DNA from: Owenia fusiformis
Lineage: Eukaryota > Annelida > Polychaeta > Sabellida > Oweniidae
Reading direction: 5' to 3'
DNA: 64,000 bases
Assembly (NCBI GenBank): GCA_903813345.2
Contig: CAIIXF020000005.1
Coordinates: 16,187,375 to 16,251,374 of the forward strand
Under the pieces are notes generated by a model. That model had not been told where the DNA came from, made no database searches, and saw only the letters and a program-made list of their open reading frames with translations. The translations under genes and the position numbers were made by a program. Shown here piece by piece: positions 33,796 through 63,761 of this stretch (positions within the stretch are counted from its first letter, which is position 1; every line of letters begins with the position of its first letter).

Positions 33796-34100
33796 ATTCC
33801 TACTGAATCCCTCACGAAAATGTGAGAATGAAATTTTGAAGCTCTGTACAGGCGAAATACAGTTGTACGTCTGAGCTGGATGCTCCAATGCTGCCAGTAT
33901 AGATCTTCAGAAAGTATAATCCTCTTTTACTATTGACTTCATATAAAGTATTGGATTCTTGGAGTAGAACTGATCAATACAGCAGGACTGTACCCAATAG
34001 CTTATATAGACTCTGCTATCATCAGATATTCCAATATTGGCCTAAATATTGCAACTACTCTACTACAGAAGAGTGCCTGATACTATTGAACCCTGGAAGG
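33796..34100 (-). promoter_or_regulatory. Presumed synapsin 5' UTR and proximal promoter
   Basis: The region upstream of the first ATG. An in-frame TGA lies near 33909, so this stretch is untranslated unless a near-cognate start is used. I see no clear TATA box or CpG-rich core, and a further upstream non-coding exon cannot be excluded. Confidence 0.35.
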
Positions 34101-42165: not shown

Positions 42166-42312
42166 TTAATCTTTGATGTTATTCGCTAAATTTGCCACAA
42201 GTGTCTCATATACTTCTTCCGCTTCATAAGCTGCATCTTGATTGCCTTGGTAACCCTCTACAATTGCTAGTCTTTGCCAGAATTGCGACATTTGGGGTCT
42301 GAGTTTTATTCC
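42166..42312 (-). CDS. JmjC-TPR protein, terminal exon with stop
   Basis: A 147-nt exon from ctttcag| to a TAA at 42168-42166. It encodes GIKLRPQMSQFWQRLAIVEG, YQGNQDAAYEAEEVYETLVA and NLANNIKD. It finishes TPR 3 and holds a fourth, degenerate TPR. The protein does not end in a KDEL-type signal. The sequence just downstream of the stop runs into a TIR element at 41952. Confidence 0.92.
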   Translation of the reverse strand, partial: GIKLRPQMSQFWQRLAIVEGYQGNQDAAYEAEEVYETLVANLANNIKD

Positions 42313-45300
42313 CTGAAAGAAAATACATAATGTAAATGGAATAAATGTATACATGTATAGCAATATTACATATTTAGTGGAACATATATGAAAACATATA
42401 TATGTCAAGTGCCATATTTGTGTAGACATTCATCATGTTCACAATACTAGGGCACATCTTTAAAATGCATATATATGGTCGATAATAAAAATTACTCATC
42501 ATTCGAGAATATTTGATAAGGTGTTTAATGTTAAAATATACTACTCCAGTGTATGTACCTTCCTGTACATTTCAGATGCTTTCTTCCAGTTAGCCCTTTC
42601 ATAAAAGTAGTCACCAAAGTATGCATGAACATCCCAGTTGTTTGGGTTGAGGGTAAGTGCCTTTGTATAATACAACTCTGTTTTGGAATAATCTTTTTTC
42701 TGAAAATAAAATATTTTTAAATTGATAGTTTGAGGATGGTTCTTTTTATTAACGAACATGGACTCAACATAGACAAAATTCTGAGTGGTAATACATGCAC
42801 ATTACACTTTGATGGAGATACTCACGCCCGGTGATCGTAAAAAATGGATGGAGGGGGGGATTAGGCGATTTCTGCAAGAAAACTCAACAAATTTGGAAGA
42901 TTTATTTTTTCAAGAGGAAATTTAAAACTGAATTGCCAAATGAATAGGTGCAGTGCATGGCAAAATATGTTAGGTCATCTAGTATTTTTTTTGAACTGAT
43001 ACCCTTCTAAGATATGAGATCTATTAAAGAAGGCGCATCATCACCAATGTGCAAAAGTCAATGGTTTTGCTATAAATCGGGCAACAATGTTCTTCCAGAC
43101 CTGTAATAAATTGGTATAAGGGACATTATTATCACAATACTAATGACATTGCTCACTTTTTAAAGTTAGTTTCCATGCGTTATACAAAAAATAATCGAAA
43201 TAAATTGATAGTGGATGGAGGGGGGGATTGGATGGAGGGGGGGATCACGTGTATGTAAGACATGATAAGACATGCTGCTTGAATTTATTCTTATGACTCC
43301 AAATTTTCCCATTTTTCATTCTCCAGAGATATAATATCCAGTTTCTTACTGGGGTACTGAGTTTAGTTTTTTCAAATACACGAGTTCTTGTGAATTTGTT
43401 CCATCGTAAAGACATATTAATCCCCCCCTCCATCCACTCCCCCCCCCTCCATCCAAAATTAATTTTTTTCGATTATTTTTTGTATAACGCATGGAAATTA
43501 AATTTAAAAAGTGAGCAATGTCATTAGTATTGTGATAATAACGTCCCTTATACCTATTTATTACAGGTTGTGTAGACCATTGTTGCCCGACTTATAGCAA
43601 AAACATTGACTTTTGCACGTTGGTGATGATGCGCCTTTTTTAATAGATCTCATATCTTTGAAGGGTATCAGTTCAAAAAAAATACTAGATTACCTAACAT
43701 GTTTTGCCATGCACTGCGCCTATTCATTTGACAATTCAGTTGTAAATTTTCTCTTGAAAAAATAAATCTTCCAAATTTGTTGAGTTTTCTTGCAGAAATC
43801 GGCTAATCCCCCCCTCCATCCATTTTGTACGATCACCGGGCGTGACTGTATAGGGAACAATTAAGAGTAAAACAATAATGCATTTTGTTATATTGTCTTA
43901 AGTTTTTCTGATGCCTTCCATCCTTTACTTTTGTGGTGAATAACACATACACAAATTCATTTACTAAAAAAAGAAATACAATTCAATTATCCAGTGAAAT
44001 ATTGATTTGGATACTAACCTTTGTAAAGATGGCAGCTAGTTCAATATAAGCACAGATAAAATAAACATCTCGATCTATTACTTCAGTGTAATATGATATG
44101 GCAGTTTCAGTGTCACCCTTTTTGTTATACACTCTTGCAAGTTTAAATAGTATTTCTGTATTACCTACAAATAAAACAACACATTTTATTTTATGAATTT
44201 GTATGACAGTATTTAAAGGAATAAAACATGATATTTACATTAAAGAATAAGACCTCATACAATGAAACCCGTCTTAGTGAACACCTCTCTCTAATGAACA
44301 CCTTTGATTAGTGAACTCACTTCAAGATATATTTCATATTGACTCCTGTATGAAAACCCTCTCTGTATTGAACACCTACCTAAAGTGAACACTATTTGTA
44401 GCTCCATATGTGTTCACAATATACAGGTTTAACTGTACAGGGTGTCAAATGGCGTTGTGCCCCCCTTCCACAGCATTAACTAGGAGAAGTACACATACAT
44501 TATATATATCATTAGAAAGAGCATTCAATTCTTGATAAAATGGACGCTAGATGACCAGGGTCAGATATTGCTACAAAGTTTCATAAGCATTTGAAATGCA
44601 CCACTATAGTGCTTTTTTCATTGATTTTTAAAAATTCCTGCATAGACCTTTTTGGTATTGGTGAATACCCGAGCAACAACTCTGACTTAAATGCTTCAGT
44701 TCAAACTGAGCCCATATTAATGGATAAAACAGAGCTACTTATGGAAGTTGAAGCTGTAGAGAACAGATATTCCATAGATATTCTCCAGGAGAACCTCAAA
44801 AAGTATTGAGATCTCTGCTCATGACATTGCTCTTTTCAATGCCCTTTTAACTTGATATCCAGCCTGACTGGCAGCCTTTTAAAGCTGCGGGGGATGGCCA
44901 AACTCTCTTTTAAAAGTTGGTTCAAATTATGTATTATTTTCTATCATCCATCTTCATCTTTTCACACTCTAAGAAGAATTAAATGCTCTTTCCAATGGTA
45001 TATAGTATGCATGTGTACCTCTTCTAGTTTATGCTAGGGATAGGGGGCACAACGCCATTTGACACCCTGTATTATAATACACACAAAAAATGCATGCATG
45101 GGCGTAGCGCTTTTTTCATGAGTAGTACTCCACCATGGGAATACAATTTGAGTGAAACGAAAAACGAGCGTTCAAAATTTTAAGGTTTGGTTGTATCTAG
45201 AGTGTATTTGCAACCATCTGGTAAGCCTGTGCATACCAGGGGTACCATGCCCTACGCCAATGACATGATGATTTGATGACTGCAATTATAAATTTTATTT

Positions 45301-48300
45301 CAAGCTTCAATCATAAACCAAAACCACTTATTACTAAACTTGATATGTCTTTAAATTCAGAATTCCCATTTAAGGGTTATTTCCTGTATCACATGTTTAA
45401 AAATGTGATATAACTGATGTAATCTGTTAATAAATAGTTATAACTAACGGTGTTGACGCATTAAACATCCTTGTTTTCTTGCTACATATGACAAACCTGA
45501 CAACCTGATATTAAATGCCTATTAGCACACTAATGAGCATATCTGTTGATAATACTTCATGATTGTCATATTTTAAAACGATGTTCTTCTTTTAGGATTA
45601 AAGGACTATCATATTTGGATGGAGAAAAATGAGGGTCATACCTTAAACAGTGCTGTTCTCTACACAAGATATACACAAATGATGATTGTGAATATATAAA
45701 AATAACAGGCATGATATTCAAATTAGAGTCCCAGTTGTCCAACCATGTTTACAAATAATATTGGTGCAACATTTGAGATGATTACAATTCATTTGCCATT
45801 CCCTCGCCTTCACTTCTTAAGAGAGCTTCCTCTTCACTCTCAGTTTACAATCAATCTCTGAACTCACCGAGTCAATCAGAGATCATATTTGAAATATGGA
45901 TGATCTTCTATACATGGTCATTTACTCTGACATCATCGCATAATTAATGAGCATGCATTTAGCATGTGTTCCTTCCAGTCCATTGATTGGTTGAGAAAAG
46001 CGTGGATAATTAGAAATGATTTATGACCAAGGCACTGGGGAGGGCTGGCACCGGGGGAATGCTGGGTTGCTTAACTGAAATTATAGTCTATACTAGGCAG
46101 AGGGTAGTCCACAACTAGACTCTGCGCAGAGAGTAACAATTAGTAGATATTGAACACTATTTTTCAAATATTGAATCTGTAAACCATTTACGAGATTTAG
46201 ATGGATCAAATCTCATTACCTGGAATTTTGAGATTTTGTTTCCTTTTGACTTGTGTAATGTCTTTGCATTTTTACTACCTCATTGTTTTCCACCTGAGTC
46301 ATTGAGGTTAAAAATTCATTACAGGAACTGCTTTTTATTCTACCTTGTGACTGTTAAAAGTTCCATACCTGGAAACATTTTGTTTAATCTAAGCAATGTT
46401 TCCTCCTGAAGCTTAAGGTTTCTGTGAACTTCAGCCTCAGATAATGTGCCATTTTGTAGAACATCTTGCAAGTACCCATCTACAAGAAGGATGTACAATT
46501 CATGTTAATAGAATACAATCTATATTTACATAAACTGATGAATAAATTTATCAATAACTGACTCACCAAGTTTGTTTGGTATTACAATAGGGAGTTTAAG
46601 CTTGCATAGCACCAACCTATACGTATGACCAATTGACCATACAAATGTATCACTTAAATATTTTCCGTTCACGTTGAGGTTGTGAAAAACATTGCAAGCT
46701 GAAACTCCATACTAGTGTTACTTATATTAGGTGTATGCTAATATCTAGAAAAGTACAGTTCCAACAAAATTATGTGAGAGTACAAATGAAAGGATTGAGA
46801 ATGAGAATACCCAGAACAGAGCCAGGTTGATGTTCCATTTTTCCAACAAAACAGATGTATGAATCAACTACATATATTTAAAATATTAAACAAGCAACTT
46901 GTTACGTAAGAGGCATCCTACCCTCTTTCAAGCTATTGTGTTAATAATACATATTGCTGATAATATGGACTGTAAGGAGTCAGAGAAAGAGATCAACCTT
47001 CAGTCAAAGAATTGATTGATGAAAGAATAAGTGATGCTTTAAATTTGTATTGGGTTTAAAATATTTAAGAAAAACTCCTCACTCATAGAAAGTATAAGAC
47101 AATGTTTCTTTTCACATTGGATTATGGTTTGGGATAGTTGGGGTTCATTCTCCTTATCACTGGTATGGTGTGCACTTAGATGTTTCTTGTTGGGTTCTGT
47201 AATATTTTTGTCCTTTCCCTTTGACACTTGTGCATACATATTAAAACGTAATTTGATTGCTCATTTTATTCTGGCATATTCTGTTTGATCTAGGTGGCTT
47301 GATTAGATCTATGTCTCTAGCATAATTAGATTCCAGGGACATAGCACAAATTGTAGACAGGATTCATATTATGTGAGGCAGAGTTGTAAGAGAGGCAATT
47401 TCTAGCTAAAGGAGGTATAGTACTACAATAAAAAACACCTGAAATGTAGTTCAGTAAAATGCCTTATGCCTTTCACCAAATATGAAGCAAATCCATCCAC
47501 TAGTATTTGACTTATGCTCCAGATGGACGGAGAAACTGACCGACTGACCAAAATAACCATTTTGGCCCACCACTATGATGTCACATATTGCTCGGGTCAA
47601 TAGAGTAAAATATAAGCCTTCTAAACTAGTAGTCATACCCTTAGAACAGGCCCAGCAAGGTGGTAATAATACAGGTTGGACACAAAGTGGTTCACTGCTA
47701 ATACATAAAATAGCAAGGATTAAGTAATATAACTGATTCCATAATAAAGCATATAGTTACAAACAACAATGTTAGTTTACGTGAGGTGTTACATAGTGTA
47801 TTGTTATAGTGTATACTTATATTTTCTTATTAAAATAAAGTACTTGAAGCCAAGGAAAAGCATTAATTATCAATTATATTTATTATTTCTTTGGTATTTA
47901 TTTATTGATTTATAACTACGTTTTTAGATGTGTCTTTACAAAAAACACACTAATTGTATTTATTGTATTATCATGTATATATTTCTTTTAGAGTTCCTCA
48001 AAAGTATTAAAACTGATGTTGTCCTTGATGTGAATGGAGAGAGTGCTCACATCTGAATAATAAACCAGGCAAACTTTAATGAAATTAATGAGACAAATTC
48101 ATGTTTCTTACTTGTGCAAAAATGACTTATATATTGTGTAAGATCTTCGTTAACAAGAGGAAATAGATAATATATCATGACGTATGAATGTGACAGGAAT
48201 GTAGGGATGCAGTGCATGATATATTATGCCATTACAACTTTTTTGACAAGTTGTAAAGACTTGAAGAAATTTTTCAACAAAGAAAAATTACTAAATAAAT

Positions 48301-51300
48301 TAATATGAGATAGATTACATAAACCAATCCTACACTTTTCACAATCATACACATGAATCCAAATATGAAGTTCCAAATGGAAAACCAAAAAAAAAACATT
48401 TAGCACCCAGCAAGAAAAGAAAACATCTAAGTGATGTACAAGAGTCAGTTAGCCTATACCAATATATCTTAGTAATTTGGAAACATTCCACTCAGTATTT
48501 TTGGAGTTCTGGCCCAACGTTATAGTAGGGGTCCAAATTATAGCCCATTGGGGTAAAATGGCCACAAAATCTAAAAGCTGAAAAACTAGGATCTAATTAT
48601 CAATACAAATGTAACATGAAAAATTATGTCCCATAAAATCCTTCTGAACGCACGCCTAAACCCACATTCTGACTCCACTACATAGGGAAAACAAACCCAA
48701 ACTATATCATACCATAGTACAAAGTGAAAAGACAACAATGTCTAATGACAGTATCACAATCCAGGACCATAGCACCAAATGACATTTCATTCCTACAGAA
48801 GCCATTACATTTCCTTGAACATATTCTAAGGCATTTATAAGGAATAAATGTGAATGAATCAAAGTATTATTGCTGATAAATTAAAACATAAAATTATGAA
48901 AATGAATAAAACATATGTGATATTTTATGGGTTAAGAGGCTTACGTTTATAAAACAGCTTCTCAGAGTTTGTCATTGCCTCTAACTTCTGTATGCCTACT
49001 GCAATCGTGTTGCCAATATTCAGAGTGGCATGGTAGTATCCCTCAGGCTATATCACATTAAAAAATATATATTAGTATATTAGCTAGGTACAGTTGATTA
49101 TACAGTCACAGTTGGGGATAACTATATCTACATGTTAAAAGCATGCTAATGCAACTGTCATCATCTGAATCTATTTTACCAAATGTGATATTGATTTGCC
49201 TATTTATCAAAAAAATTATTCCATAAGGCAGGAAGCTATTAGATAATTACTTAACACTTGTTCATCTTGAAAGTGCATTAATTCAATCAATGATTAATTA
49301 GCAGTAGCAAGCCTATCACAAATAGTATGGCAGGCCAATAGCTACCCTTTACATTCGTTCGACTTTCTTTTTGAAAGAGAGCTTCGTCTAATTCATTCTT
49401 TCAGTTAACATTAAATCTCGGAACTCACAGAACCAGTCAGAGTTTGTTTTTGGAATGTATGGTCATTTATTGTGATGTCACGACATTGTTAATGAGCACA
49501 AATTAAGCATGTGTTCCTTCCAGCTCATTAATTAGTAAATAAAATGTCAGTATGGTAGGTTTGAAATGATTCATAACTGGGGTTGTCATGGGCACTGGTC
49601 GTGGGTGTGACTGCAAAATTTTAATATACATGTAGTCTATATTAGGCGGAGTGTAGTTTAGATCAAGACTCTGCATGCAGGGTAGTATATAGTAGTTTAT
49701 AGACTATTTAGTACCAAGGACAATATTTTATTGAATCCTTTCTGTTAAAATCATAAATATGGCAACGTTCTACATATTTATGATTACCATAGCAACCATA
49801 TATATTTTACATGATCAACACAGGATGTCTTGGAACATTCTGATTAAGTTTACATCATATGAAACAATGTGATATATGATCAATTCATTAGCTTAGATAT
49901 CGTATCTAAATACCAAGTGGTAATCTTCTTCAAAGTGAATGCAGGTAGAATGTGAGTGATGGCATAAAATCATTTTATGTCAAATACTCTTATGATTAAG
50001 TATCAATTTTTATGTACTTCAAAGGAATTCTGACATCGTAACACACAAGGTTATGTTATGAAATAGGCAAGAGAAACAAACGAATTAGAAAAGATGAAGA
50101 CTAGAGTGTAAAATGTATTTTCAAAAACAGGTGAATGTTAAAGTTTCCATCAAAATCCTAATTTTATTTTCTCATAATAAGATATATTTATACAAAGAAG
50201 CAGTTGAACATATTTATAGTTAAAGAGGCTCTATGCCATAGGATAGCCCAATCAAGACCCCTCTGGACTTTTTTGCATATTGAGTTTCACCACATATTCA
50301 CCCATCTACTAATGCATCTTTAATGTCCAATTGATTGGAATTGAATGTTTGAAATCATTAGACAGACAGCTTTAAAATCAAAGGATTATCTTGAAATAAA
50401 GACATAATTATAGATCTGACATGGCATGGAAAGAGCGCAAAACATATTGTAATACAAGGCATTCAACCCCTTCCACCCCTGCTTTTTTAATTTTTCTTGC
50501 ATCAATATGTTGTTTTTTAACACACACAACCATGGGTGGAAGGGGTTGAAAATCAGGAAAACATTTCAGAAAAAACATGTGGGTGGGTTGTTTGCATCTT
50601 CCCTGTCTCAAAGTCAAAATTATTTTATCATCTCTAGGATCGCTTTTCCTGGAGGTAATGCATTGGTGAAGCATATGCACTTGTTTAAATCCTCAGAAAA
50701 TAGCAAAAATCAAACATATGACTGTCCGAAATCTGTTGCGATACTTTCCCACCTCCTTTATTTGTTTTGTAGGATCAGCTTTTCCTAACTTAATTCCAGT
50801 AGGATGATTTATTGAAAGGTGATTTCTAAAAACTAAGGCAGAGGCTAGAGGGTCAATGGGGTGAATTACTAGCATAAACCCACATGAGCATTGATTAGGA
50901 CAAATGGCAGTTTTGATTTATCCCAAAATGAGTGACATACAAACAGACTGTCAGCATGATGATTCCAAAGGCTCATCATCTGTGCCAAAAAGCACTATTG
51001 ATTTATTATTAACAAAAGTACAAAATGTAATGCATATCTAATCAAGGCATCTCAATAACTGGCACTAATCTAAGAAATCAAACTAATATACTTGTATAGT
51101 ATGTCCCTATAACTGCTGATTATTTTTCTTATCAGTCAATAAAGCTTTCCAGGGTTTGAGAAACATGTTTTTCCTATCCAAAGAACAAAGGAAGTTGTGC
51201 ACTCTCCATTATGATTTCCCCACGAGAAAAAATTAATTCATCTGATTTTTCAAAATGAATATATTGCTTTTATTATCACATTTATATGTACTCTAATACC

Positions 51301-54300
51301 TTGTTGACCTATATTCAGCACTGTATTAATGAATGGGCCACTTATTAGGGTCAATATTCAATCATGAAGTGTAGATGCTAAATAAGCTAAACATTTTATG
51401 TTCATCAAGATCCATTTGCATCCTACGCACCCCTACATCTTATCCAAATATGTTATTAGTTCAGGAAATATAATAGTATAATCTTTTGATTTACAAAGTC
51501 GTTTGACATTTGAAATGTAAAAGCTGCTTTTGGAGCATTTTTAGATCGTAATCTTATAAGAAAAAAATTATGAAAAAATGTATAATCTTTCAATTTAAAG
51601 TATGACCTGAATCGATTGTAAACTTCATATTTGCACATTTGATGAGATATAGCATTTGTGTCATATTGTGAAATTATTTAATTTGCAATCAATGTCGGTC
51701 ATAGTGTTTTTTGGTATATTTGTGATAATTAATGGAAACCAATGGCTTCTATTGGGACATGATGATATCCTCATGTTAAGTCAATGGAGCACATCCCATG
51801 TCAAGTAATTACACCCTTGCTGAATTTAATGACCTCAACCTCAGCCCATGTGAGTCTAGACGCTTGAATATTTCTAAAAGTGTTATGTGCCATTGTATTC
51901 TTCATGTTGCACCTAAAAATGATTCATTCTGAATTCTAGGGATATTTGCCCATAATTGCAGACATAGTATGTCTGAGCAATGGCTAACCTAACTGGTTTG
52001 ACATTTCTGCTTTAATTTTCTATTAATTTGTTATATTTCACTCACGTATGAAAACAAACTCGCCTAGAAAAAAACAAATGTACAAGGACTAATTAAGGTA
52101 TCCCTAATTAAGGCATGTCCAATAACTGACACTGATCTTTGAAAATGAGTGCATCCTTAGACCTATTGATTAACTTTTTTCCCTGTTAGTCAATTTTCAA
52201 AGATCCAGGGTCTGCAATTATTGGGAAACATGTTTTTGTTGTCTCATAAAAGGACATTGCATGTAAGTGTCAGAATAAAAAATTAATAATTACCACATAG
52301 AATATTTCACCAGCATTATGCACACATTCTGTAGGCAGGTCCTTTGTCAGATTTGGGTAAACCTTTCTAAACCAATCAATTTGGCTGAATCCAGGTTGTA
52401 CACCTGAACAAAAGAAAATTCATTTAAATCATCTTATTCTATAGACAGTGTTGGCATAAAAACGTAAAAACACTTAGATAAACTATGCATACTATACAAA
52501 AAGATGAAAAGTGCATTTGGTTGATAAGAAATTAATTATAAAGCAGGGTGTAGCCAGCAAATCTCAAGAGGATGCGACTTTTTGGGTTAGCATCTGTGCA
52601 AGCAAAGGAAGTTCCAAAAGGGAGGTACACGGGTTCAACATGGAATTTTTTTTGCATTGCATATGATGCATTCTAAGCATTTCCAAATGGGGATGGCTTT
52701 ACAAATGGATGTTGACCCTTTGAATTATTGCCTTTGGGGACTTCAAGACTAGATTTCATCTATCCCACATCATTTGAAACTGAATGCTCTATATTTTGTA
52801 AAGTACTAGTATCTACAACTATTTTCTATGTTATGAGTTTAATGGCTTCTTTTTCAATTTTTCTTCAACAGATACATAATTTTTGGGCCCCAAAATTTTG
52901 TATGGCCCCAAAAAATGGGCATTTTTGGGTATAATTTGGCCTTTCCTTTCTGGCCAATTTATCAAATATGGGCCTTGATTTTCAAAAATGTGGGCCCAAT
53001 TTTTGGTTTTAGCCCCACTGATGTTGACTCTCAATTGGAGGGGGGAAGTGTGTTGGACAGTGTGTGTGTTCTTTTCACGTAAGATCATGGTTTTGGGATC
53101 TATAGGGTATATTTTAATTAGGTTTACATTTGAAGATCGATTTTCTTGCTAGGGTTCTTTACAGTTTTTGGTAATTTCCCTCTGGCACTTAGATATCTAA
53201 GAGACTTAATGATGTGCCACTCTGGTACAAACTAATATCAGTGTAAAATTGTTGCTAAAATATCTTCTTCTTGAACTTAATTTTTCAGAAACTCCAGAAA
53301 ATTGCAAAATTGATTTATGGATACCTTGTTAAAATTTTATCAAAACCCATGCATTTTCAAAAAAGTAATATCAAAATAAAAAATATGGGCATATTTTGGC
53401 CCACCCTCACCTGTGTATAAAGTGTGTATAATGTTACAGAAAATGCTTTTTATCTTCAAATTGAAGCACCCTGTCTCTACGAATGTAATTTTAGAGTTCC
53501 ATTTCTGTACTGAGCCAGGTTTTCTTATGATTTGCTGAGTCAATTTTCTTTTGTAAATTGTCAGGTACAGAAATAATACTCCCTATACTCTTCATTTTTT
53601 TCCATTCATAGTTTAAGTGATGATTCCAGGGGTTCCTTAAAAAGGGGCATTTCCTTTGTAGGTGACCAGGAATATATTCTAAACTATGTAAGTCTTCATA
53701 ATTGATTGGTTAACCAGTGTCTGAACTAGAAAAACAGCAACTCAACGGAGTAGAAAATCCCACCAAACATATTTTGATTATTAGTTTAGGTTAGATTATT
53801 ATCAGATCTGTCAATTAGCGTTTGAGTTATCAAAGATTACATTCCTTTTTGCGAAAAATGGCAGCCATTTTAAAATTCAGCCACCATTTTGAAAATCGTT
53901 CTCGAACAGCATATTAAATTTGAAAAACTCCATTCACTGCTATTTGAAAAATGGTGGCGACTTTAAAATTCAGCTGCCATCTTGTAAATTCTTTGTCAAA
54001 CAGAGTTTTTGCTGATTTCTTTTTACAAAATTATCACATATGACTACTGTTAACAATAACATAGGCTTTTACAACAAAGTACACCTAAAATTATTTATAA
54101 AGCTACTAAATAGTTAAAGTATGAAAACTGAAAAACACCATTCAATATGATACAAAGTATTATTGCGTGCTAACTTTTCTTAAAACATTCAAAATGGCTG
54201 ACATGACTGAGCTAATAGGTCCAAAACCTAATCAGATGTAGAATGAAGTGAGCTGAACAAGATTTTAAAGTTTCAAAAGCAACTGTTAAGCCATTTTTCT

Positions 54301-57300
54301 TAAAGTTTACAGACAAGGATTTTAGCATTTGACTTCAAAATGGCCGACAGGAAGTAGGTATCGAGTTAAATATTTTTCATCCACATCTATATGCACTCAT
54401 AAGTTGTCCCTGAAAATTTGAAGGTGATATCTGTAGCGGTTTTGGAGAAAACTGCCGGATCTACGGATGGACAGACGGACATACAGACACATGGACGCGC
54501 CTGGGCCGACAATATGGCCCCACACTATGTGGTGGGGACATAAAAAATGGCGGCCATTTTTGAATTAAGTGGCCATATTGAAAATTCCTTCTGGAGCAGA
54601 GGTCTACCCTCATAAGGCATAAGCCCATAATCAAAACCATCAACCGGTATTCGAGTTATCGCCCGGACAAATGGACGGACGAACGGATGGACGGGCGACT
54701 TTCCTATATCCCCCTCCAGCTTCGTTCGGTGGGATAATTATGTTGAATGAAGGAATTAATGGTAATCAGTAATCACATATTTTTTAATTTATGATAATTC
54801 CAGATAAGTCTGATTGTTTTTATCAGTTTGTACATTTTACCATGGGCTTTCAACTAGAAGCCCATGATTTTACTGACAAATGTGTATGCACAGTTTTGCA
54901 AATGTTGTTCCTTGTGCCCAACCTTGTCATTGATTAGTGGACTGATTTATGAGTTTTTATCACGAAGTAGTCTATATTTATGTACTTCATTAGCAAATTC
55001 TCTTATGTTGTTTGAATAAGGCTACTTGATTTTAAGATAGAAGATTCTTAGATGACATCCAGCCCAATTGAACTGGAGTTTGAACATCTTTGGCAATTCT
55101 GCATCATTAAAGCTGCCTTTGAAACTACTTATGAAATGAATCTTAAACAGCTTGGGAGAGTGCTTGTTTAACCTCCCTGTACAAGTGCAATATTCAAGTT
55201 GCTTGCAAAATTAATTTGAAATTATGTTATGGCAAATGAAGAATTTTTTGTAAGAAGTTTTCTATAGCTTCAAAACAAGCAATATGTTGTTAAATTTGAA
55301 AAGGTAGCCAGAGATGTAATAAGATTCTCCAGTGGATATCCGGGTTACTATAACAAAGAATGTTAATATAAATTGAAATGTAAGTAAGCATGCCATCTCT
55401 TTGAACCACCTGGTTTCCAGTACTTAAAGAAACCAGAAATACAACAAACAGGATATACAGAAGTAAGAATGATAGCTAATTGACAAGAAACCCCCACTCC
55501 AACTTATATGAAGCTATATTAATTCAAATAGTTCATAAAGTACAAATTTGTTTCCAATAATATACTGAGATATGGCTATTTTAGAAATTTAGCTTTTGTT
55601 TTTTAGTAAATTTCCTCAAAAATGGTTTTCTTTGCTAAATAAATCCTTGAGGGATATAGTCAAGCTTTTCATCTTTTCTGTTCTTTCTGAGAAACTCATT
55701 ACACGAAACACCTGATGCCATGCTTTCTCAAATTAATTAACATACAGAGTGGCTCGATAAAAATGTTTCAAGTATGAAAATATCATTATGTGTATTCAAT
55801 TTTTATAATAATCCTAAAATAAAGTTGAGTTCTTGAAAAGCTCTCTTGATTAATTTTACACCAGCAGATTCAAAATCTTTTCATGATTGACTGCAAAGGA
55901 CAGATTTTATTAACTCGTGTGACTTGCCCCAACTTCTCAGTGGCTGAACATGTCATGCCTTTTCTGGATGACATTCTAAGATTTAAACGCCAGTAGAATC
56001 AGTGTGGTAACAAAAGGATGGCACTCCTCCTTACAGTTGGAAGGGCCGTGACAAAATTCATAGCATTAAATAACCCAGTCGAGTCCTCCTCAAGGTCACC
56101 CGACTTAAACCCTCCCTGGATTTCCTCTTGTGCAGCCACCTAAAAATCAAGGTCTTCACAACACTTCCAACTGATCTGAATGAAACATATCAAAGAATAA
56201 TTGATATAGTCAGTGCAGTGCGAAAAGATAGGGAGCTCATCACATGTGCTTGTAGGGATATGTTGAGGCAAGCGCATGTTTGCATGGATAGGCACAGTGG
56301 ACATGTTCCAATAGACAGATAGAAAAATTGCTGAATGAATCAGTAAAATGTCAATCTTAACTGTGAATTTAGATACATGTTAAAGAAATGCTTCCTCTTT
56401 GTCCTTTGTTCTTTTTAACCACTGAGAAGTAGGCACAAGTCAGATTTCAAATGAGTAAATGAAATCTGTCCTGTGTAGTCAATCATGAAAGAATTTTCAA
56501 TCTGCTGGTGTCAAATTAATTGAAGGAACTTGCTTCTTAAAAATTCAATTTATAATTTAGTGTTAATCCCAAAATTATAAAAGATATCAACTTTTTTATA
56601 CTTGTAACATTTTTATTGAGTCACACTGTAGACTGTTAATAAAGTTGAGAAAACATCAACATGTAGGCATCAATATTGATACCATTTTGTACTTCTAGAC
56701 ACTCTGGAATAAATTGGAGTATACTAATTTGATTCATGTACTATTGATTAAATACAGGTATAAGTGACATAGGCTAATGCCAGAGGGTTCAATTTAAGAA
56801 CATCTATTTGTATTCATACCTTATTCAAGGAAAACTAGAGTTAATACTTATGTGTTCATTTTATATAATGTGTGAAATCCACATTTATTTGGGAAACTAC
56901 AAATTATTGCACTTTCACTAAAAATCATTCTCCTTTTATCATTGTTCTACATTGTAGGACAGGCATGGTCATTACACATTGGTTTAAATACATTTATTAA
57001 CTGTCAAAATGGTAATTTGAGAGGGGGATGGTAATCTCCCAAAGTCATGGACATACCTCCAGGGGGTGTTTTGTATGGCGGGTAAAGAAACCATCTCTTC
57101 TGTCCAAACACTAGTCCATTCCAGGCATCAACGTGTTTGTGAAAGCCAACACCACTTTTAGAGCTTCCAAGGAAGAATATGCTGTCATCCTTTGATTCCT
57201 GAAAGTTATACCGCATAAATAAAATGCCTAATAAATGGGACCTGGTAAAAGATACATTGCTATTACAGAAACAATTAATTTTTCCCGGGTATAATCAAAA

Positions 57301-60300
57301 TAAAAGAAATAACATTATCATATTAACAATTGTGATCTTTGAAGAAATATTGGAGTTAGTCATTGATTAACAATGCATGATAACAATCTATTATACAGTT
57401 CAAAATTGTATAATAAAAATGAAATGACAATAACAACATCATATAACAGTAAACACATAATTGGCAATTGCAGACATGAAACTTGATCAACATAGCAAGA
57501 TTGAACACAAGGATATCTTGAAAGTGTTGAATAATGAGTCAAAGTGCCAAAAACCTTATTCATGTTACAAGGCCAATAGGCCATTTTCATCATTCTATAT
57601 AATCAAAGTTCCCTTAATTCTTATATTTTGATGTTTATGTATTAACACCATCATTAAAAGGATGATTCTTTGTATTGCAAATGGTTTTCAAAACATCACT
57701 AAAACACCAAAATTTACCAGAGATTTATGAAAATACCCCATTAACTTTTTCTCTACTTTTCATTGACTATTAGGACTGAAATGAATAGTAAATTCTGATA
57801 TTGAAAATTCGGCCAGCAAATCCCCATCCGGCCCCAAATATTCGCTCTAAAACTGGAAGTACACCAGAAGTTAAAATAAGTTGTAAGATTTCTTAGATTA
57901 TGTGTACAAGTTTGAATAGGTTTATGCAGGATGGATTATGTAAATTATTTGTTTGTTCATTTGTTTGTGATATTTTCCTTTCATTGTATGTCGATAGAGC
58001 ATTTTATTTACCGATTTGTTCATTAAGTGGACCACTAAAATAGATTTTACAAAAATACAACAAGCTGTTCGTATTTCTTATGCATGGTGCCAATGTCAAT
58101 CATTCTCACAAATACCCACCCATCTTTGCCATATATACCCCTTAAAGTCACGTGAATCTTAGTAACATATTGACCCAGGGGTATGGGCAACTGATTTTCA
58201 AGGCTAGTTTCACGTGTTAACTCTAATGAAAGGTTTAATTGTGAATGCATTTCTTCTCTGATATTTTTTCACGAACTTAGAGTTTTGGAGGAAGTATGTT
58301 AGTGGAAACTATGTTACCTCCATTTGTGGTATGGTATTGGTCAAGTAGTTACACATATCCTTAATTTGAGGTTGTTTTGGATCATTTTCTTCATAGATCT
58401 GCCTTCTTCTCAGGACCTTCTACAGTTTGAATATTAGCTTTTTCTACTTTGGACATTTGGTATGGCATTGGTCCTATATCTGGACATTTGGTATGGCATT
58501 GGTCCTATATTTGGACATTTGGTATGGCTTTTGGACATTATTTTGGTTGGTACGGGAAATACATGTATATGCCAAAATGTTCTCCATTGACATATCTATA
58601 TGAAATTTTTATTTTCATTACTCTGGGAATACAATTTTAATGGCTTATGATAACCAATGTACAAATATTTTTTGTAAAAATACCAGCACACTTTATTGTA
58701 CTCGTGGATGTGTATTCTGATTAAATCACATTAGACGAGCATTAGCATTATGAACGATCAAGTTCTATAGTAATAGCATGTCACTGCGTGTAAAAAAGGC
58801 CAAGTATAAGACGATGAAAAAGGGATAAGTAAACTACTTACATATAAGCGCTGTTCTATCCATAAAAACTTAAAGGCTTGTGAATAGAGAGCACAAATGA
58901 AACCTATACGTATGAGTATAAGAAATCGTATAAGGGGGTCAATTATGTACGTATAATGAAAATTCTCTATTGAAAACAAATTATCATGGTTGTTATTAAT
59001 GCAATTTGATCATTGACAATTATTATCAAATTATCAGGTGATAAAACTCTTAGTATTAAAAATCAAATAAAACCAATGTGGTTACAAGAAGATTCACTGT
59101 TCATTTTATTCCTTTCCATCAACAAAATATAATCTAAGCTATAATAGTACATATTAAAAACAGATTGTAATGGTAATGAGATTCATCCTTTTTATACAGA
59201 ATGATTTGACAAATATCTGATATCACAAGCCATAAGAACAAAACATGTTCATGCCAATACTAATATATTACAAAAACAAATTGTATGATCAGAAATTATA
59301 GTAAAGGGGTATGGCAAAAGGTTGTACATCATATAGCTATCACAGTGCTTTTAAACGTTATGTCATGGTGATCATGGTATTATCACCTACATACATATCG
59401 ATAATCATCAAACTACAAGTACTATTCATGGTTGATTAACCACTACCTCTTGTACATCAATCATAGGGTGTAGTGGGATATATAATTTGTTCATCTTGCA
59501 TGTATCATCCTCTTGGAATTTGAATGATCCATTGATTAGTAATATATGATAGATGACTTTTCCACCCATAGCAGAAAATAAGCCAATCAGATTGCGAGTT
59601 CTTAATCGGGGAAATGCTAACTGCTTATCGCAGGGGGTAAAAAGAAAGAATATATTCTGGATTTTGAAGCCCTGTGATCGGAGGTTGTAACACCTCAATC
59701 ACATATTTGCTCTATAAGAGGGGTATGGCAGTCGTAGCTTCACAAAATCGGTATAGAAAATCTACTTCACATCCCTATATTTTATGCTGCATAAATTATT
59801 TCTCTCGAGTTGGGGAAGCTACTATACAGCCGCCATATAGTTGCCGTAAATCAAGTCTGATTGAAGTTTTTATGGAAATAGTATAATATTTTGGACCTGT
59901 TTGTGTATGACCTCAGTATGCAAGCTTATTAATTACACAGATCAGTCCTTTATTAAGCCTCTTAATGAGCTTATGAGAAGATCAAAGGCCAAAAATAAAC
60001 ATCATAAACCATAGAATGTCCTTGCTATGTTTTGTAACACAGAAAGGTGTGTGTATCATCATGAGCAATGAATAAGAAGGCAAAGAAATTAAGCAGGAAA
60101 ATATAAAGGGGTTAGGTTAAATCCCTGCAAGCTATCCGTAGCAACTTTCTTTAATATTACATGTTTAAGCGTATGCATGTTTAAAGGGAGAATCAGATCA
60201 ATAGGGAGTGGCAAAATTGAAAGCAACATGTACAGTTGACATATAAATATATTTCTTACTATCTCAAATATGATATCTCCCAAAAGATCCATGATATGTT

Positions 60301-63300
60301 AGAAATTGGTGAAGTTATCAAGGATTCAAAGTGCCAAAATGGGGAAAAAAATGTTTAAATTCTCCAGAATAATAAAAATAGTGAGCATAAAATTAGAAAA
60401 ATAATACACGATGCGTGCATTATTGTAAAAATCTTTTGTTTTCCTCAAATACAGCATACACTTAACTTTGGGTATTTTTAGAAAACAAGGAATCATATGA
60501 ACACAAAATTGAAACAATTTTTGTCAAGAGATGTCATCAGTCATATACATGTATCTCATTCTGCCTTTAAGATATTTTTAAATCAACCTCTCAATAATAT
60601 AATTAAAAAAATATTGAGGCACTTGTAACTAACTACCCTTTGCATTCGTTCAACTTCACTTCTCAAAAGAGAGCTTCGTCTTCACTCTTTCAGTTTTCAA
60701 TAAATCTTTGAACTGATCAAGGTAATCAGATTTTGTTGTCAAACTACGGACCGCTTTCTAAACACAGTCATATTCTCTGATGGCAGAGGGTAGTTTACAA
60801 GACTCTGCGCACAAGGTAGTAACTAACACTATCGACGGAACTTCATACTAAATATCAAGACTTGCGAAGTGCTCATAGTCACAGAAACATGGAAACCATT
60901 ACTCATACTTCTTTCCATAATATGTAAACATCGTCAGGGACATGACAAGATTGTAAGCATATTCTGCATATTCCTAAGAAATCCTGTCTCTAGAAGCAAG
61001 CAATAAAACAATGCAGTATGTGTAAACATCCAATCTCATACATCAAGAATGGATTATGTCTTACATTGAACAGTGGAACAGCAAAGATCTTGAAATAGTC
61101 AAAATGAATAAAATCTCACTATTGGTCCAAAACATCATTTTTTCTCTACACTTTTGGCTAGTTCCCTAGCTTGCCTTCTTTGTGCATCTATATATACTGT
61201 CACAGTGTAAACATGCGTTTTACCAGGGGATTGCTGCAAGTGTCATTGGATCTCCCTCTCCTCCAATTGAGTTTTTTCCTCCTCACTTTTTTATTAATTT
61301 ATCATTTTTCAAATTTGCCTAATGAATATTTTGCCTCATTTTCTTTTTGACACTTCCCCTTGGTGTTAATTTCACTTTGTTAAACAGTTCAAGGACACCG
61401 CTATTCATTACTAGAGAATAAACTGTAGAGATATTAAATGTAAAGAAGTATTACATTTTAAATATATAATAGCCATAGGTGGATTATAAAAATAATTGAT
61501 CTCTTAACCTCCCACACAATCCTCTTCATAATTCACCCATTCAAAATTAGCAATTTCATTGTTCAATGTTTCAAGTCAGTTAAACATTTCTTACTGATCA
61601 AATCTTTTTCAAAATAATATGTAAGTACTTTACGCACATCTTCCATTTAATAGATTTATGTTCATATATTGGCTAGGTTCCAAGACTCCCAGGGCTGGTG
61701 GTGTAGGAGATGCATCTACCTAAATAACTTTTCCGAGAAATTTTCATTCAAGATGACACCTACTGTCATGTTACCCTAAAGCATCTCCTGATGCGGTTAT
61801 GACTCCTACATTGACTTCCTCCAAGACTCTTCCTCTTTATTAATTTTTTCCTTGCCTGTGTTAATAATTTCATTGATGATTTTAGTTGACTTACCCTCCC
61901 ACTCACCAAAGGTATGGCTAGACAGACAATTTCATTTTCAACACCAAATACTTCTAATTCCACAAGCAATGTACGATGCCATACCAAACCTTCAATCAAT
62001 ACATGGTCAAATAGCCATACTCTAATATATAAAAAATAAAGTTAGAAATGAACCCATACAAAAATTTGTGTACAATGCTAAGTCATTTATCAATAACAGG
62101 CCAAAACCATGACATATTACTAAAATGACCCCAAATCAAATCAGGCACAAATGAATTCAGAAAGGATTATGACAACTAACATACAATGGGGTTTCTATAG
62201 AGTAGATGACCATACCAGAAAACAAAATAAGTTATCATGCTGTAGAGGTTATAAAGGACATAAAGAAAATTAACTAGAAAACAGCAATTCCAGAGTAGCA
62301 AATCCCACAAAAACATGTTTTGATAAATAGCGGTTATCTTGAAAATTTATTTTTCAACAGTGCTCATTTGTCCCTAGGTATCAGCATATAAAATTCCACT
62401 CGTATTTAAGTTATCAAAGATTATGGTTTTATACAGGGTGGTCCAAAAAATCATTTACATTTTTGACAACATAGTAATTTCTAACAACAGGAAAATTTCC
62501 CAATTATTTCATAGTCCTACAGACATGTAAGTTTTGTGTGGTTAAGTTTTATTTTGATATACCTCCGTAAAGAGAGCACAGGCCAATAGTTTGTAATGTG
62601 CTCAATCCAAGCTCTTCGGCGCTGAATTGCTGTAGTTTTATTGCACATTTAAGTTTGTAATGACCATCAACAAATAGAAAATGCACTTTTTTGGTCAGGT
62701 TTAGTCTTCTGAGAATCAGCATCAAACATGTGATGTAGAGAGGTTTACTGATATGTCAAAATGGCGATACTGGCCTGATCTGGTTTAATTTGAGGATGCT
62801 AATAGATGTTCATTTCCTGTGAACATGGACTGATACTTTTTTTTACGAAAATTAGCAGCCACTTTGAAATTCAGTGGCCCAAAGCTTCTATGTCCATAGG
62901 CCTCAGCATATAAAATCTGAATCAAATTCATCTGCTGGTATTTGAGTTCATATACCAGTAGACGGATATCTGACAGATGAATGGAGAGACAGACAAATGG
63001 ACAGACAACTTCTCTATATCCCTAAGAAATTTGTTCAGTGAGATAATTTAATCTCAAACAGTTTTGATGTATTATCTAATCATTGCAAATTCATCATTTT
63101 TATGTACGGTATTTCAAAAGCATATGACATACTCCATTGTCATGAAACTTAAGACCTTAAAAGGGGGTCAAATAAAAGCAATTTATATAATTCAAAACGG
63201 TAAACTGCTTTGTTATGGTATCTAAGACCTTTCATTTATGGTGATATAAAAGGTTATGTACTGCATTGCCATGATAAAAAGGCATAAAAAGGTGTGCCAA

Positions 63301-63761
63301 ATTAAACCAGTTACAACAATATTTCAAAGGGTATACTGCGTTTCTAAGACACCCAAGACCTCATCTAAGTTGTCATTGTATCTATATATCTTTGGTTATT
63401 TTAAAAATATATTGCCACACTACTTGAGCAATTGTATTAACATATTAATTGATTAATTGTTATAAAATGTTATTAATAGAAGCTATGCAGTGGTTCGTGG
63501 CTGCCGAGGATGTCTTTTTATTTTGGAGGACTATACAGTGTAGCTGCCATAACCTAGCTATAGAGCAAATGTCATTTATTTTTTGCCTCATTTACAGAAA
63601 GGATTTGTCTCACTGCTATTCTTTTGTAAAATTCTCACTATGACAGTTTTCATACATAACAATACAGTAATGGATTACCAACCTTTACTTCCAGAAATTT
63701 TGGAGGGTTGACTGTTTCTGGTAGGTCAGATAGCTTGTAGAAATTCCTATCAAACAAGTAC
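42166..63761 (-). CDS. JmjC (JMJD8-like) domain protein with C-terminal TPR repeats; 3' eight exons
   Basis: Eight exons (63761-63683, 57198-57057, 52403-52294, 49047-48945, 46479-46369, 44164-44019, 42699-42559, 42312-42166) join without a frame break into the last 325 residues of a protein. Residues 1-67 run nearly colinear with human JMJD8 as I remember it (LF..NF...PP.F...GFHKH, then GQKRWFLYPP against GRKRWFLYPP). The JmjC/cupin core is residues 27-130. Candidate Fe(II) ligands are His48 and Asp50 in HKHVD and His116 in PEGYYHATLN. From residue 183 to 317 there are four TPR-like helix pairs (for example YYTKALTLNPNNWDVHAYFG). Likely role: Fe/2-oxoglutarate hydroxylase with a protein-interaction tail; substrate and cell location are unknown. 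The N-terminus lies beyond the right edge. No AATAAA or ATTAAA is seen in the 200 bases after the stop. Confidence 0.88.
42559..42699 (-). CDS. JmjC-TPR protein, TPR exon 2
   Basis: A 141-nt exon between tttcag| and AGGAAG|gtacat, 47 codons in phase 0-0. It encodes KKDYSKTELYYTKALTLNPN, NWDVHAYFGDYFYERANWKK and ASEMYRK. It carries helix B of TPR 2, with the signature ALTLNPN...A, and most of TPR 3. Confidence 0.93.
42822..43845. mobile_element. Fold-back element with roughly 390-bp arms and GGGGGGG tracts, in last-but-one JmjC intron
   Basis: Left end: tcacgcccggtgatcgta then atggatggagggggggatta. Right end: taatccccccctccatcc, then tacgatcaccgggcgtga. The arms match over about 390 bp, including cgatttctgcaagaaaactc, gcgcatcatcaccaatgtgc and ttttgtataacgcatgg. 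Further ggatggagggggggat units sit at the inner edges (43211-43250 and 43420-43455). The loop is about 200 bp with no transposase. Confidence 0.92.
44019..44164 (-). CDS. JmjC-TPR protein, TPR exon 1
   Basis: A 146-nt exon between tttgtag| and ACAAAG|gttagt. It completes Gly182 and encodes NTEILFKLARVYNKKGDTET, AISYYTEVIDRDVYFICAYI and ELAAIFTK. The pattern LA.VY...GD...AI.YY.E.I is a typical TPR, followed by helix A of the second. It ends in phase 0. Confidence 0.92.
44262..44437. repeat. MITE-like AGTAAA-family repeat, copy 3
   Basis: The text cgtcttagtgaacacctctc, cttcaagatatatttca and tgtgttcacaatatac corresponds to copies at 1454 and 2340. Its end (tttaactgta) directly abuts the next element. 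Confidence 0.7.
44438..45069. mobile_element. TIR element of 632 bp with TA flanks
   Basis: The left end CAGGGTGTCAAATGGCGTTG + TGCCCCC and the right end (gggggcacaacgccattt + gacaccctg) are inverted repeats, both flanked by TA. The subterminal agaaagagcattcaattctt / aagaattaaatgctctttcc also inverts. A 72-codon ORF at 44591 shows no transposase motif. Tc1/mariner-type non-autonomous element by target and size. Confidence 0.88.
45097..45265. repeat. Short MITE with GGGCGTAG / CTACGCC ends
   Basis: It starts atgggcgtagcgc and ends ccctacgccaatgac, giving an imperfect inverted repeat about 165 bp apart. Similar ends (GGCGTAGCCAG) occur at 470 and 38740-39010. Confidence 0.55.
45797..46132. mobile_element. 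MULE-like MITE, copy 2
   Basis: Homologous to 9906-10284 through cacttcttaagagagcttcc, ctctgaactcaccgagtcaa, ccattgattggttgagaaaa and ctactaggcagagggtagtc. The ends are decayed and no 9-bp duplication is clear. Confidence 0.85.
46369..46479 (-). CDS. JmjC-TPR protein, linker exon between JmjC and TPR parts
   Basis: A 111-nt exon between cttgtag| and CCAG|gtatgg. It completes His145, encodes GYLQDVLQNGTLSEAEVHRN then LKLQEETLLRLNKMFP, and leaves one base. The segment is predicted helical and leads directly into the TPR repeats. Phases agree with both neighbours. Confidence 0.88.
46490..48940. other. JmjC gene intron, mostly unremarkable
   Basis: It contains the TTTGGGATAGTTGGGG dispersed repeat at 47090-47200 and diverged pieces at 48400-48440 and 48680-48760. 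Nothing coding is recognised. Confidence 0.45.
48945..49047 (-). CDS. JmjC-TPR protein, distal-histidine exon
   Basis: A 103-nt exon between atatag| and AAAC|gtaagc. It encodes PEGYYHATLNIGNTIAVGIQ and then KLEAMTNSEKLFYK, leaving one base. PEGYYHATLN is the classic cupin-8 segment (P..W.HA..N in relatives) that supplies the third iron ligand, the His at residue 116. Confidence 0.93.
49343..49684. mobile_element. MULE-like MITE, copy 3
   Basis: It starts TACCCTTTACATTCGTTCGA and ends CTCTGCATGCAGGGTA. It shares agagagcttcgtct, attaaatctcggaactca and taggcggagtgtagttta. The flanks do not show a clear duplication. Confidence 0.87.
49690..50990. other. JmjC gene intron, nothing recognised
   Basis: Short ORFs at 50408-50875 overlap on both strands and have no domain features. 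ccttccacccctgc / tgggtggaaggggttgaa at 50468 and 50533 form a short hairpin. Confidence 0.4.
51000..52270. repeat. Two diverged copies of a dispersed repeat
   Basis: Copy A (51040-51215) and copy B (52100-52265) share aaggcat.tc.aataactg, cactaatct.aga, tcagtcaat, cca.gggt.tg and gaaacatgttttt. Copy B contains ctttgaaaat / attttcaaag, suggesting a folded core. Confidence 0.6.
52294..52403 (-). CDS. JmjC-TPR protein, JmjC exon 3
   Basis: A 110-nt exon between gttcag| and TATGTG|gtaatt. It completes Gly74 and encodes VQPGFSQIDWFRKVYPNLTK then DLPTECVHNAGEIFYV, ending in phase 0. It matches JMJD8 ...W....YP.L......EC...AGE..Y, the strand that leads into the distal metal-binding histidine. Confidence 0.92.
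52410..53825. other. JmjC gene intron, nothing coding
   Basis: A partial ...TTTTGGGATCTATAGGG... dispersed repeat lies near 53085-53170 and a gggtgtagccagcaaatctc fragment at 52547. The stretch 52860-53010 is rich in GGGCC / GGCCC words. Confidence 0.45.
53830..54735. repeat. Composite of ATGGCNGCCATTTT repeats with GACGG-tract ends
   Basis: Repeated aaaatggcagccatttt and attttgaaaatcgttctcga blocks lead to two terminal segments. One is at 54455-54545 (ggatggacagacggacat ... cactatgtggtggggacata). One is at 54650-54732 (ggacggacgaacggatgg ... cttcgttcggtgggataatt), which matches the endings at 20219 and 63010. Confidence 0.8.
54740..55740. other. JmjC gene intron, nothing recognised
   Basis: No exon, repeat or RNA gene identified. 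Confidence 0.35.
55747..56628 (+). mobile_element. Decayed Tc1/mariner-type transposon with long TIRs
   Basis: The left end TA|CAGAGTGGCTCGATAAAA and the right end (ttttattgagtcacactg|TA) invert. The match continues inward for about 200 bp (caccagcagattcaaaat, catgattgactgcaaaggac, ccacttctcagtgg-like text on the other side). A transposase remnant is between the arms. At about 880 bp it is probably internally deleted. Confidence 0.8.
56085..56325 (+). pseudogene. Transposase C-terminal remnant (Tc1/mariner superfamily)
   Basis: The frame starting near 56095 reads SPDLNPP, then shifts into CSHLKIKVFTTLPTDLNETY and QRIIDIVSAVRKD. SPDL.P.DF.LW.HLK..VF...P..L.E...RI is the C-terminal end of the DDE domain and following helix in mariner-like transposases. 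The shift between SPDLNPP and the HLK part breaks the frame, and the rest of the catalytic domain is missing. Confidence 0.72.
57057..57198 (-). CDS. JmjC-TPR protein, metal-binding JmjC exon
   Basis: A 142-nt exon between ctttcag| and GGAG|gtatgt, starting in phase 0 and leaving one base. It encodes ESKDDSIFFLGSSKSGVGFH, KHVDAWNGLVFGQKRWFLYP and PYKTPPG. The HxD pair (HVD) and the G.KRWFLYPP strand are hallmarks of the cupin-8/JmjC fold. This is the strongest family evidence in the gene. Confidence 0.93.
57205..60630. other. JmjC gene intron, mostly unremarkable
   Basis: It holds three short tandem copies of tttggacatttggtatgg + cattggtcctata at 58450-58530. No exon is recognised; ORFs at 58758 and 59426 have no domain features. 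Confidence 0.45.
60634..60818. mobile_element. MULE-like MITE, copy 4 (internally deleted), 9-bp target duplication
   Basis: It starts TACCCTTTGCATTCGTTCAA and ends ctctgcgcacaaggta, with gtaactaac directly on both sides. It is about 185 bp, half the size of copy 1. The perfect duplication supports the boundaries of the whole family. Confidence 0.9.
60820..61895. other. JmjC gene intron, nothing recognised
   Basis: No exon or repeat identified. Confidence 0.35.
61901..62015 (-). other. Unassigned open segment between JmjC exons (possible cryptic exon)
   Basis: On the minus strand a tattagag acceptor-like site is followed by an open stretch reading VWLFDHVLIEGLVWHRTLLV, ELEVFGVENEIVCLAIPL, and then gtgagt. 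It could splice in only if the 63.7-kb exon used its GTTG|gtaatc donor; phase would then be kept. Colinearity of the flanking exons with JMJD8 argues that the main transcript skips it. I do not recognise the sequence. Confidence 0.25.
62280..63045 (+). repeat. Dispersed element with GACAGAC-tract end, copy 3, with inserted TIR fragment
   Basis: It starts gaaaacagcaattccaga.. (compare agaaaaacagcaactcaacg at 53730) and ends gacagacaaatggacagaca + ttctctatatccctaag...gataattt. At 62434 the text tacagggtggtccaaaaaat looks like one end of a Tc1/mariner element (TA then CAGGGTGGTCC); the matching end was not found. Confidence 0.65.
63683..63761 (-). CDS. JmjC-TPR protein, first exon in window
   Basis: A 79-nt exon after ttttag|, with one base completing an upstream split codon and then YLFDRNFYKLSDLPETVNPP plus KFLEVK. 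It aligns with the JMJD8 stretch just before the metal-binding strand. The donor is ambiguous: AAG|gttggt (used here) or, six bases earlier, GAA|gtaaag. Both leave phase 0 and differ only by the residues VK. A third donor, GTTG|gtaatc, would change the phase. No further exon is seen in the last 240 bases of the window. Confidence 0.8.

Follow-up and report, generated by a model that had tools for sequence, protein, structure and literature searches.

A predicted gene of Owenia fusiformis that joins a JMJD8-like JmjC core to a C-terminal TPR tail

UTX and UTY (KDM6A/C) carry tetratricopeptide repeats (TPRs) and a JmjC domain in one protein, the TPRs standing before a core of the KDM type; the collagen prolyl hydroxylases and the PLODs belong to other oxygenase families. 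JMJD8 is described as a JmjC-domain-only protein of the endoplasmic reticulum (ER) lumen, with a signal peptide and a histidine that replaces the aspartate of the iron site (PMC5684140), and a lysine demethylase activity has been reported for it that alanine substitutions at H179 and H181 abolish; H248 is named as well (PMC9820096). AspH, an anchored protein of the ER membrane, exposes its TPR and oxygenase domains to the lumen, has a two-histidine iron site and does not hydroxylate its substrates without the TPR domain (PMC6817910). The collagen prolyl 4- and 3-hydroxylases and the PLODs are likewise 2-oxoglutarate (2OG) oxygenases of the ER, with TPR domains, known or predicted, placed before the oxygenase domain (PMC6817910, cited together with PMC10947486 for the TPRs of AspH and the collagen hydroxylases). 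Here we describe a gene of the annelid Owenia fusiformis that encodes a JMJD8-like core followed by TPRs. Most of it lies in the window, the whole stretch of 64,000 nucleotides that was analysed (C5:16187375-16251374, in a 498-Mb genome of 525 contigs, of which C5 is one).

The core and the TPR tail are almost certainly parts of one protein made from one gene, as judged from the sequence of this locus and of a paralogue 6 Mb away. Eight exons on the minus strand of the window (63761-42166) have GT-AG borders and agreeing phases and join into one frame of 325 amino acids. This bears out the preliminary description, made from the window sequence, which had proposed eight phase-matched exons in one frame with identical outer ends. 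The gene nevertheless extends further than was then visible, since these are exons 2 to 9 of nine. Complete as modelled, it has nine exons and eight GT-AG introns over about 23 kb and a product of 494 amino acids. Exon 1 (506 nt, C5:16252708-16252203) lies 829-1334 bases past the window end. Its ATG is preceded by in-frame stops and followed by a strongly hydrophobic segment, VLLYFTIIILLLSCILNILF, and then by the N-terminal portion of the core; its donor, in phase 2, is compatible with exon 2. The parts of the gene are given below, in window positions unless a contig is named.

C5:16252203-16252708, minus strand: exon 1, outside the window, with the ATG and the hydrophobic segment
63683..63761, minus strand: exon 2 (residues 169-195), with a YLFDRNFYK block identical in the paralogue
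57057..57198, minus strand: exon 3 (residues 196-242), with the putative iron-site strand GVGFHKHVDAWNGLVFGQKRWFLYPP, which aligns to the HxD strand of JMJD6
57127..57141, minus strand: codons of the HxHxD motif (H215-K216-H217-V218-D219), aligned to JMJD6
52294..52403, minus strand: exon 4 (residues 243-279), core
48945..49047, minus strand: exon 5 (residues 280-313), end of the core, with no stop ahead of the donor
49032-49030, minus strand: codon of the distal histidine H285, in exon 5
46369..46479, minus strand: exon 6 (residues 314-350), linker between core and TPRs; the paralogue exon has the same phases and no significant sequence similarity
44019..44164, minus strand: exon 7 (residues 351-399), TPR 1 (353-386) and the start of TPR 2 (387-420); tblastn match to the paralogue exon
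42559..42699, minus strand: exon 8 (residues 400-446), remainder of TPR 2 and start of TPR 3 (421-454)
42166..42312, minus strand: exon 9 (residues 447-494 and the TAA stop, at 42168-42166), last part of TPR 3, then more helical sequence, a doubtful TPR 4 (455-488)

The paralogue, found by a protein search of the same genome (C5:10064658-10068688, plus strand), has nine exons and encodes 543 amino acids, with an N-terminal hydrophobic segment, a Cupin_8 domain (1.3e-11) and TPRs (TPR_19, 8.7e-14) in the order seen in the window gene. All eight introns are in the same phase in the two genes and seven of them share their alignment column, the remaining one being displaced by three columns at a gap in the linker. 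The strongest backing for the one-gene reading comes from this paralogue, which repeats both the order of the parts and the intron phases. The two proteins are identical at 115/239 positions in the core and at 46/178 in the tail, and the tail-to-tail alignment scored 178, the maximum among 500 shuffles being 52. As in coding sequence, differences between the two genes are most frequent at third codon positions, both in the core (0.63, against 0.39 and 0.24) and in the tail (0.69, against 0.52 and 0.49).

The 494-residue protein matched Cupin_8 (PF13621) over residues 90-288 (5.5e-10, 40.0 bits, cut-off 27.4) and TPR_1 (1.6e-14, 53.4 bits, cut-off 27.8); TPR_17, TPR_8, TPR_2, TPR_14, TPR_7 and TPR_19 also exceeded their curated cut-offs, and the JmjC models PF02373 (19.3 vs 24) and JmjC_2 PF08007 (17.5 vs 22) stayed under theirs. 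When hmmscan was run with the 325 residues encoded in the window, Cupin_8 (4.4e-8, 33.8 bits, cut-off 27.4) and TPR_1 (2.2e-15, 56.2 bits, cut-off 27.8) were again both above cut-off in one protein, as expected from the cupin-8/JmjC core with TPRs read earlier from the window; PF02373 was under cut-off (20.4 vs 24), and the 21 NCBIfam families matched by these residues were every one far below theirs. Among solved structures, the best match of the core was JMJD6 (3.1e-18, residues 76-311), and JMJD6 constructs made up four of the six distinct sequences at E <= 0.1. The tail gave 152 matches at E <= 0.1, and among the 60 of these that were listed the top places went to designed TPR proteins and, through its TPRs, to O-GlcNAc transferase.

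A consensus scan placed TPR starts at residues 353, 387 and 421, in exact 34-residue register, with 6, 7 and 6 of the 8 consensus positions. For either gene, the summed score of the top three was reached by 0/1000 tail shuffles. The frame at 455 has 4/8 consensus positions, and a fourth TPR is doubtful because four other frames of the tail score just as high. Three clear repeats thus remain from the four that had been proposed.

The alignment with JMJD6 (3.1e-18) sets H215, H217 and H285 against the H-x-D...H residues of that protein. The putative iron-site residues of the paralogue are H264, H266 and H335. This HxH site, as reported for JMJD8, supports the JMJD8-like core of the preliminary description. 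The second and third histidines lie 68 residues apart in the window protein, 69 in the paralogue and 67 in human JMJD8 (numbering of PMC9820096), so the JMJD8 trait of an HxH with a distal histidine about 67 residues on recurs in both TPR proteins at near-equal spacing; a gene of JMJD8 type on contig C9 of the same genome (the C9 gene) has this arrangement too. An aspartate stands two residues past the second histidine in both TPR proteins (H217-V-D219 and H266-A-D268), whereas the C9 gene has a proline (HGP), and because of this aspartate an HxD pair (H217-x-D219) is also possible. N222, K229 and T293, kept in both paralogues, are paired in the alignment with residues from the 2OG side of JMJD6, which we take to serve 2OG binding.

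These features are consistent with an ER-lumenal, membrane-anchored oxygenase of AspH-like design whose TPR arm holds the substrate, a reading to which we assign a probability of roughly 55%. The protein would be anchored in the ER membrane, with the core and the TPRs in the lumen. Fe(II) would be bound via H215/H217 (or H217/D219) and H285, together with 2OG, and the TPR arm would hold secretory-pathway substrates against the active site for oxidation, by analogy with the TPR domain of AspH. The substrate-recruiting form suggested in the preliminary description would accord with this, AspH being the precedent. The predicted ER location rests on the hydrophobic N-terminus carried by exon 1. 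This segment, at residues 24-43, has a best 19-residue mean of 2.75 (2.41 in the paralogue), and no mean above 1.4 occurs past residue 90; human JMJD8 likewise begins with a hydrophobic signal sequence.

Membership of the AspH family itself was rejected on domain content and order, and no match to its aspartyl/asparaginyl beta-hydroxylase domain, which we take to be PF05118, was present among the 24 families listed for the 494 residues at E <= 0.05. AspH is nonetheless the probable working analogue: it is membrane-anchored, as predicted here, and combines TPRs and an oxygenase in one chain with a histidine-only iron site. The order of the two is reversed in the window protein, since the TPRs of AspH precede the oxygenase domain (PMC6817910).

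Several observations count against the AspH-like reading. The C-terminus, NNIKD, is not of the KDEL type. The charges flanking the hydrophobic segment of the window protein are near neutral (+1 for the whole N side; 0 vs 0 for the nearest 15 residues). Those of the paralogue (+5 for the whole N side; +1 vs -1 on the other side for the nearest 15 residues) would point to an N-in anchor, which the charges of the window gene hardly do. In addition, the glycosylation sequons, N105, N260 and N323 in the window protein and N32 and N92 in the paralogue, have no site in common. The authors who located JMJD8 in the ER, moreover, suspect that it has no hydroxylase or demethylase activity because of the histidine at its iron site (PMC5684140).

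This last point leads to the alternative that survives best, in which the same single gene encodes a core that is a pseudo-enzyme and the protein acts through its TPRs as an ER adaptor or co-chaperone. The histidine at the position of the iron-binding aspartate would fit such a role, as would the lost activity suspected for JMJD8 and the folding factors among its partners, which are given with a caution about overexpression (PMC5684140). AspH, however, functions with two histidine ligands (PMC6817910), and the reported JMJD8 activity is lost on the H179A/H181A change (PMC9820096). The conservation of N222, K229 and T293 in both paralogues also argues for a working site, and we consider a pseudo-enzyme unlikely, although it is the reading to be taken most seriously after the AspH-like one.

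A cytosolic or nuclear location, with the hydrophobic N-terminus unused or replaced through an alternative first exon, would make the product of the single gene a TPR-JmjC enzyme of chromatin or signalling. UTX/UTY is a nuclear protein with TPRs and JmjC, and the weak flank charges of the window gene would suit this location. It is improbable, given that the first exon of either paralogue encodes a strongly hydrophobic segment, and given the JMJD8-type HxH and the score of PF02373 under its cut-off (19.3 vs 24). Unlike KDM6, the window protein carries its TPRs C-terminal to the core, and membership of the UTX/KDM6 group was rejected on domain content and order.

Two adjacent genes, one JMJD8-like and one encoding TPRs, might also have been joined on paper while never sharing a transcript. 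Four AATAAA motifs occur in intron 5 of the window gene, at offsets 981-1675; none occurs in the 1066 bases downstream of the final stop, which contain a single ATTAAA. Exon 6 is unalignable between the paralogues (global score -17), so that the model of the paralogue exon rests on phase and splice sites, and this exon opens with two methionine codons. All of this weighs against a single gene. It is outweighed by the second locus, 6 Mb off, where order and intron phases are repeated. In addition, the first in-frame methionine of exon 6 in the window gene is M348, three residues before the end of the exon, and the last core exon reads open up to its donor, whereas the C9 gene stops directly after STFLG. 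Given the paralogue, two separate genes were judged very unlikely. Because of the AATAAA motifs in intron 5, a short tail-less form ending in KRKPLNP is possible beside the long form.

The relation to JMJD8 and JMJD6 was analysed within the same genome. The C9 gene was reached via a weak match obtained with the core as query (C9:13897477-13897626, E 0.03). Its exons read AGTGVPFHFHGPGFGEVIYGRK, RWFLYPPDQKPEFHPNRTTLHWLMEDYPKLIEYTKPLECTLNVGD and IIYFPDRWWHGTLNIDTSVFMSTFLG-stop, and it has the HxH, shares KRWFLYPP with the window protein, and ends right after the core. The model is partial, with five exons and the 5' part not found; judged by the length that we assume for JMJD8, the model may lack an exon between its first two, though their phases fit. 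We take it to be the JMJD8 orthologue on the basis of the HxH, the short end and the vertebrate sequence as we know it. JMJD6 is a separate locus (C6:18682652-18684924) with the motif HID; it differs from the window protein by its HxD, a longer stretch past the motif and the lack of TPRs. The window gene is equally close to both, with 32.3% identity to the C9 gene (51/158) and to JMJD6 (72/223), and the paralogue has 31.0% and 29.3%, respectively.

The TPR genes and the C9 gene have in common, against JMJD6, the HxH and a shortening by three residues after it. Their core introns differ: those of the C9 gene split GRK from RWF and NVGD from IIYF, and those of the TPR genes follow PPG and either IFYV or ILYL. 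In a FastTree analysis of five sequences, all from this genome, with L002 as outgroup and with L001, L003, L004 and L011 left out, the TPR pair was supported at 0.86; the TPR pair with the C9 gene reached 0.41, too low to be taken as a group, which weakens the case for a JMJD8-like affinity. By sequence comparison, the window gene and its paralogue probably form a JMJD8-like subfamily separate from both JMJD8 and JMJD6; it would go back at least to the divergence of these two C5 genes.

A tail beyond the architecture of JMJD8, as the preliminary description had it, was confirmed: JMJD8 is described as JmjC-domain-only (PMC5684140) and the C9 gene ends after the core, whereas 209 residues, with the TPRs, follow H285 in the window protein. 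The proposal that this is a form of JMJD8 was not supported, because the C9 gene is separate, has the JMJD8 features and ends short. A longer JMJD8, with a tail added to its gene in this lineage, is thus hardly credible: the HxH, the three-residue shortening and KRWFLYPP are shared, but only 51/158 positions are identical to the C9 gene, the core introns lie elsewhere and JMJD6 is about equally close; this judgement is limited by a tree confined to this genome and by its support of 0.41.

L001-L004 and L011 are other Cupin_8/JmjC frames of this genome (on C6, C3, C6, C7 and C228, in that order). L011 has HAD at the motif, and L002 looks like what we take to be KDM8.

Outside this genome, prokaryote and viral contigs were searched with two short peptide patterns taken from the alignment of the two proteins. 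With these narrow patterns, 287 matching stretches in prokaryote contigs included one relative (L009, from an Anaerobacillus metagenome-assembled genome), in TPR residues only, and 79 matches in viral contigs included none. In the open-licence literature, the fusion of a JMJD8-type core to TPRs was absent from titles and the openings of abstracts, which is weak evidence, and wording such as JMJD8-like or JMJD8 ortholog was not found; PMC2453528 contains none of the terms TPR, tetratricopeptide and Jmjd8. Ten papers do mention both JMJD8 and tetratricopeptides. Other proteomes may already hold the fusion under generic names.

The two TPR genes might, tentatively, represent an ER-lumenal oxygenase that adds a third kind to the JMJD6/JMJD8 type, with an HxHxD motif and a TPR arm placed after the enzyme, a pairing that a JmjC enzyme would have reached separately from AspH and the collagen prolyl hydroxylases. 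To our knowledge such a kind is missing from the vertebrate inventory. If the reading is true, it adds a further TPR-paired 2OG oxygenase with an order opposite to that of AspH and the collagen hydroxylases. It would also provide an HxH relative equipped with a TPR arm and encoded twice in a genome that has a JMJD8-type gene as well, and thereby a testable handle on the targets of HxH-type JmjC proteins; the activity and the target of JMJD8 are unsettled in the papers cited (PMC5684140, PMC9820096).

Intron 7 of the window gene contains a repeat that is non-coding for the protein.

42822..43845: foldback repeat with two 405-nt arms, 94% complementary, and a 214-nt loop

A first look at the genome with one arm gave 2908 candidates, of which 40 were scored. 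The family appears abundant and young, because 40 of the 42 rows listed (the place of the query included) are 95-100% identical across nearly the full arm.

Three further features lie near the gene or elsewhere in the window.

C5:16265600-16267651, minus strand: long intronless frame (L006) upstream of the gene, like a G protein-coupled receptor (7tm_1, 2.5e-27, over a stretch of 264 residues)
33535-33906, minus strand: possible first exon of a synapsin gene, ending in CKTLLVIDDPHTDW (Synapsin_N, E 0.0041, and Synapsin, E 0.0084, both under cut-off)
17483-17821, plus strand: open reading frame that repeats EYVTTCGG in tandem, perhaps a minisatellite

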